Assembly (NCBI GenBank): GCA_017468425.1
Contig: JAFUIO010000010.1
Coordinates: forward strand, 1-64,000
Length of the DNA: 64,000 nucleotides
Source of the DNA: Clostridia bacterium
GTDB lineage: Bacteria; Bacillota; Clostridia; Oscillospirales; Acutalibacteraceae
Reading direction: 5' to 3'
The notes beneath the pieces were generated by a model. That model worked only from the letters and a program-made list of their open reading frames with translations. It searched no databases and was not told where the DNA came from. Position 1 is the first letter of the stretch. Each line of letters starts with the position of its first letter. The translations under genes and the position numbers were made by a program. Positions 47,901-63,591 of this stretch are shown one piece after another.

Positions 47901-48003
47901 ATCCACATAAATTTTAATAAATAATATATTGAAAATTTTTATTATGTGTGTTATTATTCCATTGTGGAGTAATATTCATAAAAATGAAAAGGAGATTTTC
48001 ACA

Positions 48004-50082
48004 ATGAATAAGAAAGTACTTAAAGTCATTTCTGTTGTTATGGCGATTATGATGGTTGTTTCAACCTTCTCTTTTGTTTATGCGGCAGACAGCAAACAGA
48101 CAAAAGGAATCGAAGATATTGTCAACACAGATGATGCTACAATGTCAAGCATTGAAACGCTCATCAATGACTATGTCAAAGGGTACAACGAACGTCATTC
48201 TCAGCCTGAAAATCAGTGGATGATTACACTCAACGGCAACCAGTATGACCTTCTCTCTATCCCCGGTGCAGCAGATGCTATCGGTAACATCAAAAGCACA
48301 CAGCAGCTCAAATATGTTTTCTTGCAGTATCTTGAAATCCTTGCTCATGAAATTCTCGGTCTTCTTGCAGATACAATGCCGGATCCTGATTATTTCAAGG
48401 ATGAGAAGGATTATAAGAGCGAAAACTTCTATTCAGGTACAGACAAATTCCTTGATGAACCTGCAGAAGGCGCAAAATGGAAGCTCGGTTATGCTAACGC
48501 AAGCCTTGTTCCCGATGACTGGGAAACAAAAGATTACTATCTCGGCGGTTACATCGATATCAATAATGGATTCTCAAACAATGTTGAATCAATCGTTGAT
48601 GATATGAAAGTAAGAACCGTTGCTCTTGATGACTCATCAGGCAGAGGCGTTTCAATCTTCGCTACAATCGACTCAATCGGCGTTTCAAACGCTTATATCA
48701 GACAGATCCGTGCAGAAATTGCTAAGATTGCAGCAGAAAAGAACATTAAGCTTGCAAGCGTTAACGTTGCTGCAACTCACTCACACAGCGGTATCGATAC
48801 ACAGGGTCTCTGGACAAATCTTTTCCCGAAACTCCTCGGCAACCTTTTCAAAGGCTGGACAGGTCTCGGCACACTTGAAAAAGGTGTTGATGAAGACTAT
48901 ATGAAAATTGTTGTTGAAAGAACAGCAAAGGCAATGGGCGTAGCTCTCGATGATATGAAACCCGGTACAATGACATATTCAAAGAAGGATATCGGCGACG
49001 GCTACTTCAACAACAAAAACCGCCCCTCAGCAACTGCTAAGGACAACACAGTAACACGTCTTGTTTTCACACCCGATGATGTTAATGCAACACCCACAAT
49101 CATTGCTAACATGGCAGGTCATCCCGACGTTGCAGGTCTTCCTACAGATGACGGTAAGGGCACGGGCCGTGAGCTTTGCGGTGAATATGTTTACTATATC
49201 GAAAAATATCTTAACGAATATTCAGATGATTCTGTAGCAGTAAATGAAGGTAAGGAAGGCTACAACTTCTACTTCATCAACGGCGCAATTGCAGGTATTT
49301 ATATGGGCAGAGGCCCTTCAGGTGACGGTTATCCCAACGTACACAGATATGAGGAATCAATCCGTTACGGTACAGAAATCGGCAGAATTCTTCTTGCTCT
49401 TAACTTGACAGAGGAAGAAATCGTTGCTAACGATAAGATTTCAGGTGATTCAATCATCAAAGAGGAAATCGAGAAATATGGTCTCCAGGACAGCTACACA
49501 ATCTGGTATAAAGGTTGGACATCTGTTGAAGAAACAGAGGTAGAACCTATCCTTAACGTAAGAATCAAGGAAATCAGAATTCCCGTTACAAACAACTTTA
49601 TCAAGCTCGCAGGCAGAGCAAACCTTGTTACATATAACATCCTCAGAACAGAAAAGGGTACTTACGAGGTTGTTTCAGAAACAGGTTACATTGAAATCGG
49701 CAAGCAGATGAAGGCAGTTACGGCTCCCGGTGAAATCGTACAGGATATCATCTACGGTGGCGGTTCAATTACAGCAGAAGGCTCATTCTCATGTCAGGAC
49801 TTCCAGTACAAATCAGTATGCGAAATCTTCGGCGACAAGGAGCTTACGGCATTCGGTCTCTGCAACGATGCTCTCGGTTATATTGTTCCTGATAACGACT
49901 ATTCACTTATCAGCTATCACGAACTTATTTCTCTCGGCAGATATGCAGCATCTTCTATTGTAGGCGCACTCAGCGAAATTGCTGCAGAAGTTAACGGTAC
50001 TGTAAAACCTGATACACCTGCAACTCCCGACACTCCCGTAACTCCCGATACTCCCGCAACTCCTGAAACACCCGCAGCATAA
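48004..50082 (+). CDS. Secreted neutral/alkaline ceramidase-like protein
   Basis: 692 residues with signal peptide (MNKKVLKVISVVMAIMMVVS). ATHSHSG (about 259-265) with the His pair and GHPDV (about 375) resemble the zinc-binding motifs of the neutral ceramidase family. The loop that normally carries the nucleophilic serine (GD-S/T-x-x-N type) is INGAIAGIYM here, so the canonical serine is not visible and function may differ. The tail PATPDTPVTPDTPATPETP is a Pro-Thr linker with no domain after it. It starts a three-gene operon with cohesin-like proteins. AAAGGAGAT precedes ATG 48004. Confidence 0.75.
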   Translation: MNKKVLKVISVVMAIMMVVSTFSFVYAADSKQTKGIEDIVNTDDATMSSIETLINDYVKGYNERHSQPENQWMITLNGNQYDLLSIPGAADAIGNIKSTQQLKYVFLQYLEILAHEILGLLADTMPDPDYFKDEKDYKSENFYSGTDKFLDEPAEGAKWKLGYANASLVPDDWETKDYYLGGYIDINNGFSNNVESIVDDMKVRTVALDDSSGRGVSIFATIDSIGVSNAYIRQIRAEIAKIAAEKNIKLASVNVAATHSHSGIDTQGLWTNLFPKLLGNLFKGWTGLGTLEKGVDEDYMKIVVERTAKAMGVALDDMKPGTMTYSKKDIGDGYFNNKNRPSATAKDNTVTRLVFTPDDVNATPTIIANMAGHPDVAGLPTDDGKGTGRELCGEYVYYIEKYLNEYSDDSVAVNEGKEGYNFYFINGAIAGIYMGRGPSGDGYPNVHRYEESIRYGTEIGRILLALNLTEEEIVANDKISGDSIIKEEIEKYGLQDSYTIWYKGWTSVEETEVEPILNVRIKEIRIPVTNNFIKLAGRANLVTYNILRTEKGTYEVVSETGYIEIGKQMKAVTAPGEIVQDIIYGGGSITAEGSFSCQDFQYKSVCEIFGDKELTAFGLCNDALGYIVPDNDYSLISYHELISLGRYAASSIVGALSEIAAEVNGTVKPDTPATPDTPVTPDTPATPETPAA

Positions 50083-50114
50083 TTATAACAAATTTTATAT
50101 AAGATGTGGTTATT

Positions 50115-51851
50115 ATGAAAAAAAGCAATTTTGCTTTCAGACTTATAAGTCTGGCAATGGCTATTGTTCTGATTTTCGGCACATTCGGTTCATCTGTCTA
50201 TGCGGCAGATGAATCGGATTATGTTGCTGAATTCAGAATAGAAACCGACAAAGCTTCTGCAAAAAAAGATGATGATGTTACGGTAAGTGTTTATCTTAAA
50301 ACCAATTACTACATTTTTGCAGCCAGTCTTGTCGTAATATATGATTATCAGAAACTCACTTTACAGAACACAAGCGATACTCCTTCATCTTTTCTTACCT
50401 TTGAAGGACCTATGGCAGATGCTTACCTTGTAAATGGTAACTGGCAGAATACAGAGCATCTTTTCTCAAAAAGAAACTCAAATACTGAATTCTGGTCAGG
50501 TGAAGAAGCAATGAGTAAATACAAGACTGTATTTGCTTCATGGGCAGGAGATTCTTCTCTTTCCGAGCTTCTTATGCTTGAAAATGAAGAAAAAATCATT
50601 AGTTTCACGGTTAAAGCAAACGAGGACATTGATGATTTTTCAGAACTTCTTTTTATAAGCAAAGATTTCCTTAAAACTGCAACAGCCCCGCAGGGTTATC
50701 TCTTTGTGGGACGTTCAGAAACAAGTGAAGTTGATATAAGCAAAGTAATTCAGTACGGACAGACAATTATTTATAACGGTGTTGACCCCACAGCACATGA
50801 ACATGTTTCAGGTGAATGGGAAGTAATAACACCTGCAACCTGTCTGACCGATGGTTACCGTACAAAAAAATGTACTGTATGCGGCAATAAGCTTGCAGAA
50901 GAAGTTCTGTACAGAACAGGACATAAGTATGTAGCGGAAGAAACTGCACCAACCTGCACAGACCAGGGTTATACAACATATACCTGCTCATACTGCAGTG
51001 ATTCTTTTGTGGCAGATTATATAACTGCTCCCGGACATTCAGAAGTAACTGATGAAGCGGTTCCCCCGGATTGTGAAAATACTGGTCTGACAGAAGGCAG
51101 TCATTGCGAAGTATGCGGTGAAGTTTTTGCTGAGCAGGAAATTATTGACGCTCTGGGCCATACAGCAGGTGAGGCGGTTATCGAAAACAAAGCTGATGCA
51201 GATTGCATTAACGACGGTTCATATGATGCAGTAGTTTACTGTACAGTATGTGATAAAGAACTGTCCCGCGAAAAGATTGTTGTTGATGCTCCCGGTCACA
51301 CACCTGCAGAAGCTGTGGAAGAAAACAGAGTGGAAGCAACGTATGAACAGGCAGGCTCATACGATTCAGTAGTTTACTGTACTGTATGCGGAGAAGAACT
51401 GTTCCGCGAAACAAAAGAAATTCCGCAGCTCCAAGGTTACTTCAGAGCAGCAGAAGGTTCAGCAACAGTTCTCGATAAAGAACTCGGGCTTATCTATGGC
51501 CTTGATGTGGGTCTTACAGACCTTGAAGGTTATGTGGAGTATTCATCAGACGTTTCATACGAAACTCCTTACGGAATCGGCACAGGTAATGTTCTTACAA
51601 CTTACCGTGGCGGCGAAGAATGGGAAATTTACACAATTATCATCTTCGGTGATCTGAATTCTGACGGAGTTATTGATATTTACGATTCTTCAATCCTTGC
51701 TGCAATGGTAAACGGTGATATGGAAACTGAAGAAGGCGATGCAATTGTTTTTGCAGCAGACCTTAATAACGATACAGCAATAGATATTTACGACCTCGCA
51801 ATTCTCAACTCCGTTGTTAACGGCGAAACAGAAATATCACAAACAAAATAA
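50115..51851 (+). CDS. Secreted adaptor with cohesin-like domain, Cys/His repeats and dockerin
   Basis: 578 residues. Signal peptide, then a cohesin-like beta-sandwich (about 35-220; VTVSVYLKTNYYIFAASLVVIYD, KTVFASWAG). Four or five repeats with C-x2-C and GH patterns follow (for example PTCTDQGYTTYTCSYC, 230-430). A type I dockerin ends the protein with two Ca-loops, DLNSDGVIDIYD and DLNNDTAIDIYD. It is a paralogue of the next gene in its first domain. It would sit between an anchored cohesin and other partners, as inference. 32 bases after the ceramidase-like gene. Confidence 0.7.
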   Translation: MKKSNFAFRLISLAMAIVLIFGTFGSSVYAADESDYVAEFRIETDKASAKKDDDVTVSVYLKTNYYIFAASLVVIYDYQKLTLQNTSDTPSSFLTFEGPMADAYLVNGNWQNTEHLFSKRNSNTEFWSGEEAMSKYKTVFASWAGDSSLSELLMLENEEKIISFTVKANEDIDDFSELLFISKDFLKTATAPQGYLFVGRSETSEVDISKVIQYGQTIIYNGVDPTAHEHVSGEWEVITPATCLTDGYRTKKCTVCGNKLAEEVLYRTGHKYVAEETAPTCTDQGYTTYTCSYCSDSFVADYITAPGHSEVTDEAVPPDCENTGLTEGSHCEVCGEVFAEQEIIDALGHTAGEAVIENKADADCINDGSYDAVVYCTVCDKELSREKIVVDAPGHTPAEAVEENRVEATYEQAGSYDSVVYCTVCGEELFRETKEIPQLQGYFRAAEGSATVLDKELGLIYGLDVGLTDLEGYVEYSSDVSYETPYGIGTGNVLTTYRGGEEWEIYTIIIFGDLNSDGVIDIYDSSILAAMVNGDMETEEGDAIVFAADLNNDTAIDIYDLAILNSVVNGETEISQTK

Positions 51852-51867
51852 CAAGGAGTGATTACGG

Positions 51868-52878
51868 ATGAAAAGAAATTTTTGTAAAGTAATTTCCGTT
51901 TTAATGATGATGGTAATGCTTCTTTCAACAGGAGTTGTTGCTATTTCATCTTCAGCCGCTTCAGAGGCTGATTACAAAGCAACATTCAGCATCAAAACAG
52001 ATAAAACTTCTGTCAAAGCAGGAGAAAACGTTAAAGTAAGTGTTAAACTTAAAACAAACTATTATATTTTTTCAATGCAGATACCTGTGATTTATGATGG
52101 TGAAGCGTTGAAAATGCAGAACACAAGCCCCACAAGCCTCAAATCATTCCTTACTTTCGAAGGCAGAATGGCTTCAGCTTATCAGACAAACGGTAACTGG
52201 AAATCTCCTGCAAACTTTTATACAGACCGTAACTCAAACACAGCATACTGGTCACAGAAGAGTGTAATGGATAAATACAAGATTGCTTTTGCTACATGGT
52301 CTGCAAACTCACAGCTCAACGGCGGCAAACTTGTAAAGCTTGAAAATGAAGAAACCGTTGTATCTTTCACTCTCAAAGCAAATAAAGATATAAGCAATAT
52401 TGATGGTCTTATCTTCCTTCACAAAGATTTTATCAAAACAACTACTTTTGCAGGCGGTTTATGGTTCTGCGGAAGAAGTAAGACAGAAAAAGTTGATGTT
52501 AACAATTTTGTTGCAGCAGGTCAGACTCTGGCTTTCACAGGTAAAGTTTCGAATATGGGCGGAAGCGGCAGTTCAGATGGCGGTAATAAAGTTGAAGAAG
52601 GTGCAGTTGTAATCAACTATAAAGCAACGAAGTGCCTTGAAGAAGAGCTTAACGCAACTATTCTCAAGGATTACAAGCTTAAATGGACTTCTGCAGATGA
52701 ATCAATCGTAACAGTTGACGAAGATGGTAACATCTACGGTGCTAAAGCCGGTGAAACAACAGTTACAGTTAAATCAACAGACGGTAAATTCACAAAAACA
52801 TTTGATGTTCAGGTAACATATTCCGTATTACAGTGGATAATTATTATTGTTCTTTTCGGTTGGCTCTGGTACATCTAA
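51868..52878 (+). CDS. Cohesin-like protein with Big2 domain and hydrophobic C-terminus
   Basis: 336 residues. Signal peptide; cohesin-like domain (about 35-225) similar to the first domain of the previous gene (LKTNYYIFSMQIPVIYD, FLTFEGRMASAYQTNGNW, KYKIAFATWS). A bacterial Ig-like (Big2) domain follows (about 250-318: ADESIVTVDEDGNIYGAKAG, TTVTVKS). The last 17 residues (LQWIIIIVLFGWLWYI) are hydrophobic, probably a membrane or sorting tail. It could be the anchoring member of the operon. It starts 16 bases after the previous stop. Confidence 0.72.
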   Translation: MKRNFCKVISVLMMMVMLLSTGVVAISSSAASEADYKATFSIKTDKTSVKAGENVKVSVKLKTNYYIFSMQIPVIYDGEALKMQNTSPTSLKSFLTFEGRMASAYQTNGNWKSPANFYTDRNSNTAYWSQKSVMDKYKIAFATWSANSQLNGGKLVKLENEETVVSFTLKANKDISNIDGLIFLHKDFIKTTTFAGGLWFCGRSKTEKVDVNNFVAAGQTLAFTGKVSNMGGSGSSDGGNKVEEGAVVINYKATKCLEEELNATILKDYKLKWTSADESIVTVDEDGNIYGAKAGETTVTVKSTDGKFTKTFDVQVTYSVLQWIIIIVLFGWLWYI

Positions 52879-52891
52879 AATAAGTAATAAT

Positions 52892-52929
52892 AAAACTCGT
52901 AAGGAATTGATTTTCCTTACGAGTTTTTT
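52892..52929. terminator. Terminator of the ceramidase-like/cohesin-like operon
   Basis: AAAACTCGTAAGGA and TCCTTACGAGTTTT stem followed by TTTG; A-rich on the other side, so it can work both ways. Confidence 0.87.
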
Positions 52930-62490: not shown

Positions 62491-63591
62491 GTGAATAATC
62501 TGAAGCGATATCTGAGCGTTATATTAGCAATAGTAACAATTATGCTTGGTATATGTGCTGTAAGTCCTGTTGCAGCGGCAAAAGGAGATATAAACGGAGA
62601 CGGAAGTGTAACTGTAAGTGATGCTATGCTTTTGTTTAACCACGTTTCAGGTAAAAAGTCACTCGGCTCAGACGGAAAATCAAGAGCTGATGTAAACTCT
62701 GACGGTTCAATTACCGTTGCAGATGCTATGAAAGTTTATAACATTATTCTCGGCAAAGACAGCGGTTCATCATCAGGTTCTTCTTCTAAAAAAGGCGAGT
62801 TTAAAATTACAACCTACGGTTGGGGTCATGACGTTGGTATGAGCCAGAACGGTGCAAACCTTTATGCTAAAAATGACGGCATGAATTACAAACAGATTCT
62901 TGCACATTACTATCCCGGCACAAAGCTTGTAACTGACGACACAACAGCACCTAAAACAGTAACATACAATTCAGTTGAATATTCAATGAGAAACTACCTT
63001 GCAAGTGCTCTTTATATGGAAATGGGTCCCTCAATGCACAAAGAGGCACTTAAAGCACAGTGTGTGGCGATTTATACTTTCGGTAAATATCACAGCAACT
63101 TCGGCAAGAATTTCAACGGTAACGACCACGCAATGAAGAGTAATGTTGCTTCTGCACCGCAGAGCGATATAATCTTTGCAGTTGTTGATGAGGTTATGGG
63201 ACAGTACCTTACATATAACGGAAAGCCCTGTCTTACTGTATATTCCGCAACTTCTGCAGGCACAACTGCAAAATGCAGTGATATCTGGTATCAGGACCTT
63301 CCTTATCTTACAAGAGTTCCCAGTAAGTATGACAGTACAGTTTCAGGTTATAAAAAGACAATTACTTACACAAAGGATGAAATGAAAACAAAACTTGAAA
63401 GTAAGTTTGGTGTAACTCTTTCAGGTACACCTGAAAACTGGGTTGAAATTATTTCACACGACAGTGCTGTAAACTCAAAAATCGGACATGCCCTGACTGT
63501 TTCCATCGACGGAAAGAAAACAATAAAGGGTGCAGATTTTTATGTTAAAATGGGTCTCAGGTCACCTTGCTACACAGTTGAATATGTTTAA
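62491..63591 (+). CDS. Secreted dockerin-SpoIID-like protein with permuted motif order
   Basis: 366 residues with a signal peptide. A type I dockerin comes first (about 31-90; GDINGDGSVTVSD, ADVNSDGSITVAD), then a short Ser/Gly linker. The SpoIID/LytB-like part has GWGHDVGMSQNGA (about 110-122) and ILAHYYPGT, which are normally at the end of SpoIID, before the catalytic-Glu block MEMGPSMHKEALKAQCVA (about 174-191), and ends with ADFYVKMGLRSPCYTVEY. The order is thus changed. SpoIID proteins cut glycan strands of peptidoglycan. GTG 62491 follows GGAAGGCGGA. Confidence 0.8.
   Translation: MNNLKRYLSVILAIVTIMLGICAVSPVAAAKGDINGDGSVTVSDAMLLFNHVSGKKSLGSDGKSRADVNSDGSITVADAMKVYNIILGKDSGSSSGSSSKKGEFKITTYGWGHDVGMSQNGANLYAKNDGMNYKQILAHYYPGTKLVTDDTTAPKTVTYNSVEYSMRNYLASALYMEMGPSMHKEALKAQCVAIYTFGKYHSNFGKNFNGNDHAMKSNVASAPQSDIIFAVVDEVMGQYLTYNGKPCLTVYSATSAGTTAKCSDIWYQDLPYLTRVPSKYDSTVSGYKKTITYTKDEMKTKLESKFGVTLSGTPENWVEIISHDSAVNSKIGHALTVSIDGKKTIKGADFYVKMGLRSPCYTVEYV

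Follow-up and report, generated by a model that had tools for sequence, protein, structure and literature searches.

Three consecutive genes on the forward strand of a 64,000-nucleotide stretch of DNA from a member of the Acutalibacteraceae (Clostridia bacterium, assembly GCA_017468425.1, contig JAFUIO010000010.1; the whole stretch is called the window) encode, in order, a ceramidase-like protein (g1), a protein bearing a predicted cohesin and a dockerin (g2) and a protein bearing a predicted cohesin and a hydrophobic tail (g3). Our reading, held with moderate confidence, is that g2 is an adaptor and g3 a likely anchor in a cohesin–dockerin network of one genus, likely of gut bacteria, that probably tethers surface proteins and not fibre-degrading enzymes, g1 being a dockerin-free predicted metalloenzyme of the ceramidase fold. 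Cohesin–dockerin pairs are known mainly for gathering polysaccharide-degrading enzymes. We favour surface organisation over fibre digestion here because hardly any carbohydrate-degrading enzyme can be recognised among the dockerin proteins of the two genus genomes examined.

The g1 gene (48004..50082, ATG at 48004, stop ending at 50082, 692 amino acids (aa)) is separated by 32 bases from g2 (50115..51851, ATG at 50115 with an alternative in-frame GTG at 50106, stop ending at 51851, 578 aa), and g2 by 16 bases from g3 (51868..52878, ATG at 51868, stop ending at 52878, 336 aa). Each product begins with a signal-peptide-like stretch, as judged by eye, and is predicted to be secreted. The original prediction had described three such genes in a row forming a unit; the coordinates agree, and the gene order is kept in five of the seven genomes of the genus (G000, from which the window comes, G100, G101, G104 and G105). 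The two others, G102 and G103, gave no g1 match at 1e-100, and both have cohesins of the subfamily described below.

In all five genomes with the operon, g2 has the make-up of a monovalent adaptor, with one cohesin and one dockerin in an exported protein (export judged by eye). Its cohesin domain (50211..50771), aligned in our cohesin profile A4 and 50% identical to the g3 region, is followed by Cys/His repeats (50781..51425, extent set by eye) that the shorter orthologues of g2 in L085 and L088 lack, by an X-like module (51435..51641) and by the dockerin (51648..51812). X-module and dockerin together are identical to those of the C1:40598 protein of G000 at 103 of 136 residues. The dockerin contains the two calcium-loop repeats of Dockerin type I (PF00404), with Thr instead of the usual Gly in the second loop, and carries Ile-Tyr at positions 10–11 of both loops, which we take, from type I dockerins, to be the recognition positions; its Pfam score of 22.9 bits equals the cut-off and rose to 26.9 bits in the genome search. 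An IgA protease of known structure (9qa6) has repeats similar to the Cys/His repeats of g2 (E 0.00097). In g3, a predicted monovalent anchor, a cohesin domain assigned by predicted fold and sequence homology (51964..52533) precedes a Big_2 domain (52606..52800; Pfam, 33.7 bits) and a hydrophobic tail of 19 residues with FGWLWYI at its end (52819..52875), which is modelled as a helix, is predicted to insert into the membrane and likely anchors g3 at the cell surface. Every one of these parts of g2 and g3, apart from the X-like module, had been picked out in the original prediction, and the adaptor-plus-anchor architecture that it proposed stands at the level of domain content.

Structure prediction, which had been suggested as a check, returned a cohesin sandwich, and sequence homology backs the assignment to Cohesin (PF00963): four domains of the same subfamily (on C23, on C15 and two on C2) score above the Pfam cut-off, and A4 retrieves classical cohesins on C26 and C1. 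Fold matches of the cohesin model include a non-cellulosomal archaeal cohesin, 2xdh. The cohesins of g2 and g3, probably products of a duplication, have in common a conserved segment (52159..52275 in g3, residues 98–136, bounds taken from the strands of the structure model, with TNGNWKSPxxFYTxRNSNTxYWSQ), and so they probably recognise similar ligands. All seven genus genomes contain A4 matches, at 3–11 places per genome, and a few of these are classical cohesins. Of 100 genomes drawn from the family, 13, including G000, had any A4 match at 1e-4, and those of the other genomes (12 of 99) were weak (best 9.7e-11) and mostly partial; Dockerin_1 was found in 78 of the 100, and 25 had exactly one match to it by hand count. 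Elsewhere in G000 (L033, C23, ~52.4–54.1 kb) a subfamily cohesin closes a protein of PASTA repeats whose N-terminus has a hydrophobic stretch, and P0066 and P0067 are similar; by its domains, this PASTA–cohesin protein may link the network to peptidoglycan.

A genome-wide dockerin scan, also proposed beforehand, found 18 dockerin open reading frames (ORFs) in G000 (2.0 Mb, 41 contigs, 84% complete). All 18 were scanned with Pfam, one over 2114 of its 2880 aa, and for the 16 other than g2 and the gene at 62491 matches were listed to 1e-3; in G101 (98% complete), which has 27 dockerin matches, 26 ORFs were scanned with g2 left out and one ORF cut at 258 aa, and matches were listed to 1e-5. Pfam recognised no polysaccharide-degrading enzyme among the 18 ORFs of G000, and dockerin enzymes with Pfam-recognisable domains for cellulose, starch or mucin degradation numbered 0 of 18 in G000 and 0 of 26 in G101; neither genome showed the cargo of a cellulosome, an amylosome or a mucinolysome. 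In both genomes many of the dockerin proteins have no recognised domain other than the dockerin, so these counts concern recognisable domains. The modules recognised in the G000 ORFs include Big_2, Big_3, FIVAR, GLUG, BspA-type leucine-rich repeats (LRR), Listeria–Bacteroides repeats, DUF4474, CHAP, SpoIID and cohesins, and the enzymes recognised in G101 were a GH25 lysozyme, a papain-family protease with a lectin-like domain and SpoIID. The recognised cargo of both genomes is mainly adhesin-like, wall-lytic or protease, which supports the earlier suggestion of a scaffold outside cellulose degradation. That such a scaffold would be unusual in itself did not hold up, as starch (amylosome) and mucin (mucinolysome, described in PMC12997984) systems are known; what looks rarer than a non-cellulose system as such is one in which hardly any polysaccharide-degrading cargo can be recognised. 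Within the window, the gene at 62491–63591 encodes a SpoIID/LytB-domain protein with a strong N-terminal dockerin (49.8 bits) and a counterpart in G101 (L112); this dockerin would dock a peptidoglycan enzyme.

The ceramidase-like nature of g1 was borne out by its predicted fold, that of a neutral ceramidase, and by a profile match, the Pfam ceramidase score alone being sub-threshold (15.4 bits against a cut-off of 32.1). The broader g1 profile A5 matches a PDB ceramidase by sequence, and the narrower profile A2 gave no match to PDB by sequence. H259/H261, H373, E577 and Y626, which we take to be the zinc ligands, are invariant in A5 and aligned to 4wgk, the Glu/Tyr part of that alignment scoring negative. 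However, g1 differs from the neutral ceramidases of human (4wgk) and Pseudomonas aeruginosa (2zws), with which it shares 14–16% identity, by a tyrosine (Tyr433) at the likely nucleophile position. The same residue occupies this position in the 28 rows of A2, and the A5–4wgk alignment ends before it; a distant paralogue (L091) has Ser there, and five others have Asn, Thr, Ile or Asp. Neutral ceramidases use a serine nucleophile, which was probably replaced in g1. Named relatives were found in an Oscillospiraceae metagenome-assembled genome (MAG) and in a Clostridia MAG from deer rectum, and G000 holds five further loci with g1-family matches (C1, C30, C6, C33 and C31), an expansion of the family in a small genome.

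The original prediction also had g1 possibly presented by the scaffold. No dockerin is found in g1 in any of the five genomes with the operon, and its Pro/Thr-rich C-terminal end is missing in two of them. We inspected by eye the neighbourhoods of 18 g1 relatives, one a paralogue in G000 and 17 spread over 14 genomes from other genera, and saw neither g2 nor g3 in any. We rejected g1 as a scaffold client.

We asked which dockerin goes with which cohesin. The original prediction made g3 the dedicated holder of g2: the g3 cohesin would bind the g2 dockerin, and the g2 cohesin would hold a further partner, possibly g1. The genes are adjacent, have adaptor and anchor architectures and are kept together in five of seven genus genomes, and the Ruminococcus flavefaciens ScaB dockerin is described as binding the cohesin of the surface protein ScaE (PMC5934362). 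However, the class of the g2 dockerin varies between genomes with no matching change in the g3 cohesin. In the window, G105 and G101 it is of the Ile-Tyr class after an X-like module (Val-Tyr in the second loop in G101), in G104 a Thr-Tyr variant, and in G100 a different class ending in LW. G100 and G104 have g3 cohesins that are 82% identical and g2 dockerins that are 22% identical, and the window and G105 have g2 dockerins 83% identical and g3 cohesins 65% identical. Across the five genomes the g2 dockerin varies together with the cohesin of the same protein (r 0.78, equalled or exceeded in 6 of 120 permutations) and not with the g3 cohesin (r -0.18, 49 of 120). Seven G101 proteins, g2 and six others, share the Ile-Tyr class, which also occurs in the C1:40598 protein of G000. 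Because the dockerin class varies in this way and six other G101 proteins share it, a dedicated g2–g3 pair appears unlikely from the sequences, and g1, which would be the further partner, lacks a dockerin. Of 19 g2-like proteins, 16 have matching residues in the two loops at position 10 and 13 at position 11, more than in shuffles that take no account of relatedness. As a partner for the Ile-Tyr class, the classical cohesin at C1:35.7k was tried by phyletic profile and rejected: its close relatives occur in the same five of seven genomes as the operon, so presence does not single it out. Clustered in the C1 region concerned (L021, 33.9–47.5 kb) are four dockerin genes and two classical cohesin genes; the Ile-Tyr X-dockerin encoded by one of the four is nearly identical to that of g2.

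We judge it likewise rather improbable that the ligand of the subfamily domains, contacted through the conserved segment, is a glycan or wall polymer and not a dockerin; g3 would then be a membrane protein that binds the wall, and g2 a wall-binding module carried by a dockerin. The segment is common to g2, g3 and a PASTA–cohesin protein, unlike the variable dockerin-binding faces expected of specific pairs; 2xdh is among the fold matches; and of the 53 residues from 94 to 146, 27 are invariant or nearly so, an enrichment over the 36 of 143 outside this stretch (p 0.001). However, the enrichment depends on the bounds chosen, and for the narrower 98–136 it falls short of significance (17 of 39, against 46 of 157; p 0.12); moreover, the same genome encodes 18 dockerin matches, and four subfamily domains exceed the Pfam Cohesin cut-off. 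Several points nevertheless weigh against the surface network that we prefer. Cohesin–dockerin binding by g2 and g3 is itself a proposal from domains and predicted folds, and the Pfam Cohesin match of g3 is sub-threshold (19.4 against 24.1 bits). Its tail helix (residues 320–335) is modelled with low confidence (blocks of mean pLDDT 66 and 53), and the tail has neither a basic end nor an LPxTG motif, so that anchoring is inferred only. The covariation (five genomes) and loop-symmetry (19 proteins) tests are weak, related sequences not being independent. Many dockerin proteins have large regions devoid of any Pfam domain, where divergent glycan-active modules may be missed; matches were listed only to 1e-3 in G000 and to 1e-5 in G101, and G000 is 84% complete. 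Lastly, g1 may not be wholly unconnected: at two of the 17 loci outside the genus, the g1 relative is followed immediately downstream, on the same strand, by a dockerin gene, which encodes a 939-aa protein with LRR and fn3 in G060 (C183, L058) and a 251-aa protein in G056 (C7, L074). There may thus be a weak recurrent link between g1 relatives and dockerin genes. In G014 a lysozyme-like protein with Big_2 and a g3-type tail is encoded directly downstream of a g1 relative.

In the surface network that we favour, the C-terminal helix would hold g3 in the membrane, Big_2 would serve as a spacer and the g3 cohesin would face outward, where it would capture dockerin-bearing surface proteins, g2 not exclusively. 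The Ile-Tyr-class dockerin of g2 would plug into whichever cohesin serves that class, and the g2 cohesin would be offered to a further client. The g1 protein, likely co-expressed, would work untethered close to the surface, on a lipid amide or a comparable bond.

The tail of g3 (roughly QWIIxIxLFGWxWY) is common to L007, L018, L093, L094 and L095, where it follows Big_2-like or other modules; it ends other G000 proteins and proteins of a few related genera, with relatives found by protein search in G014, G048, G063 and G087. One of these loci (L007, C16 of G000, ~105.8–106.25 kb) encodes, just downstream of a dockerin protein gene, a 137-aa protein in which a signal-like stretch, a Big_2-like part and the tail make up the whole, and a similar 147-aa protein occurs in G014 (L096). 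The DNA pattern for FGWxWY gave seven matches in G000 and one each in 4 of 290 other genomes of the class, about the level of the reversed control (five genomes with one match each); a class-wide signal was therefore rejected, and by its sequence distribution the tail looks like a lineage feature. A literature text search for the motif found no paper, and the shared tail is possibly an undescribed anchoring or sorting signal.

Directly upstream of the trio lies a D-Ala-D-Ala carboxypeptidase gene, kept in all five genomes with the trio. A promoter-like site on the forward strand (47929..47957; TTGAAA-17-TATTAT, TG preceding the second hexamer) ends 46 bases before g1 and is weak evidence, because 28 such sites were counted and shuffles averaged 24.4, so that they are not in excess. 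A terminator-like 15-pair hairpin (52892..52927) starts 13 bases after g3; such sites are commoner than in shuffles (12 against 5.8).

The closest architectures are the R. flavefaciens adaptor and anchor scaffoldins ScaC and ScaE, described in PMC5934362; like g2 and g3, they are an adaptor that has a single cohesin as well as a dockerin and a surface protein that bears a cohesin. However, many dockerin proteins of that species carry fibre-degrading modules (PMC4081043), whereas here the only polysaccharide-degrading cargo recognised is a GH25 lysozyme. Ruminococcus anchoring scaffoldins are often sortase-linked (PMC11557425); g3 instead has Big_2 and a hydrophobic tail. The Limousia mucinolysome (PMC12997984) and the Ruminococcus bromii amylosome are likewise gut-bacterial cohesin–dockerin systems outside cellulose degradation, but their dockerins carry mucin- or starch-active enzymes, none of which was recognised here. 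What is new is the cohesin subfamily, the different anchor and the near absence of recognisable glycan-degrading cargo in the two genus genomes examined.

Dockerin groups of R. flavefaciens are described as having distinct specificities, group 4 occurring also on LRR and transglutaminase-like proteins (PMC5934362 and PMC2930009), and in the latter the authors raise a possible cell-surface-structuring role for group 4. Genomes of the present genus, with up to ~10 subfamily cohesins and up to 27 dockerins, would make that suggestion testable, and they are a possible source of new orthogonal cohesin–dockerin pairs and of a possible new surface anchor. More tentatively, the genus may use cohesin–dockerin plugs to build its cell surface and not to digest fibre, with swappable adhesin-like and wall-remodelling proteins clipping, directly or through g2-like adaptors, onto g3-like membrane anchors, whose cohesin would belong to a new subclass and whose C-terminal anchoring tail would be previously undescribed.
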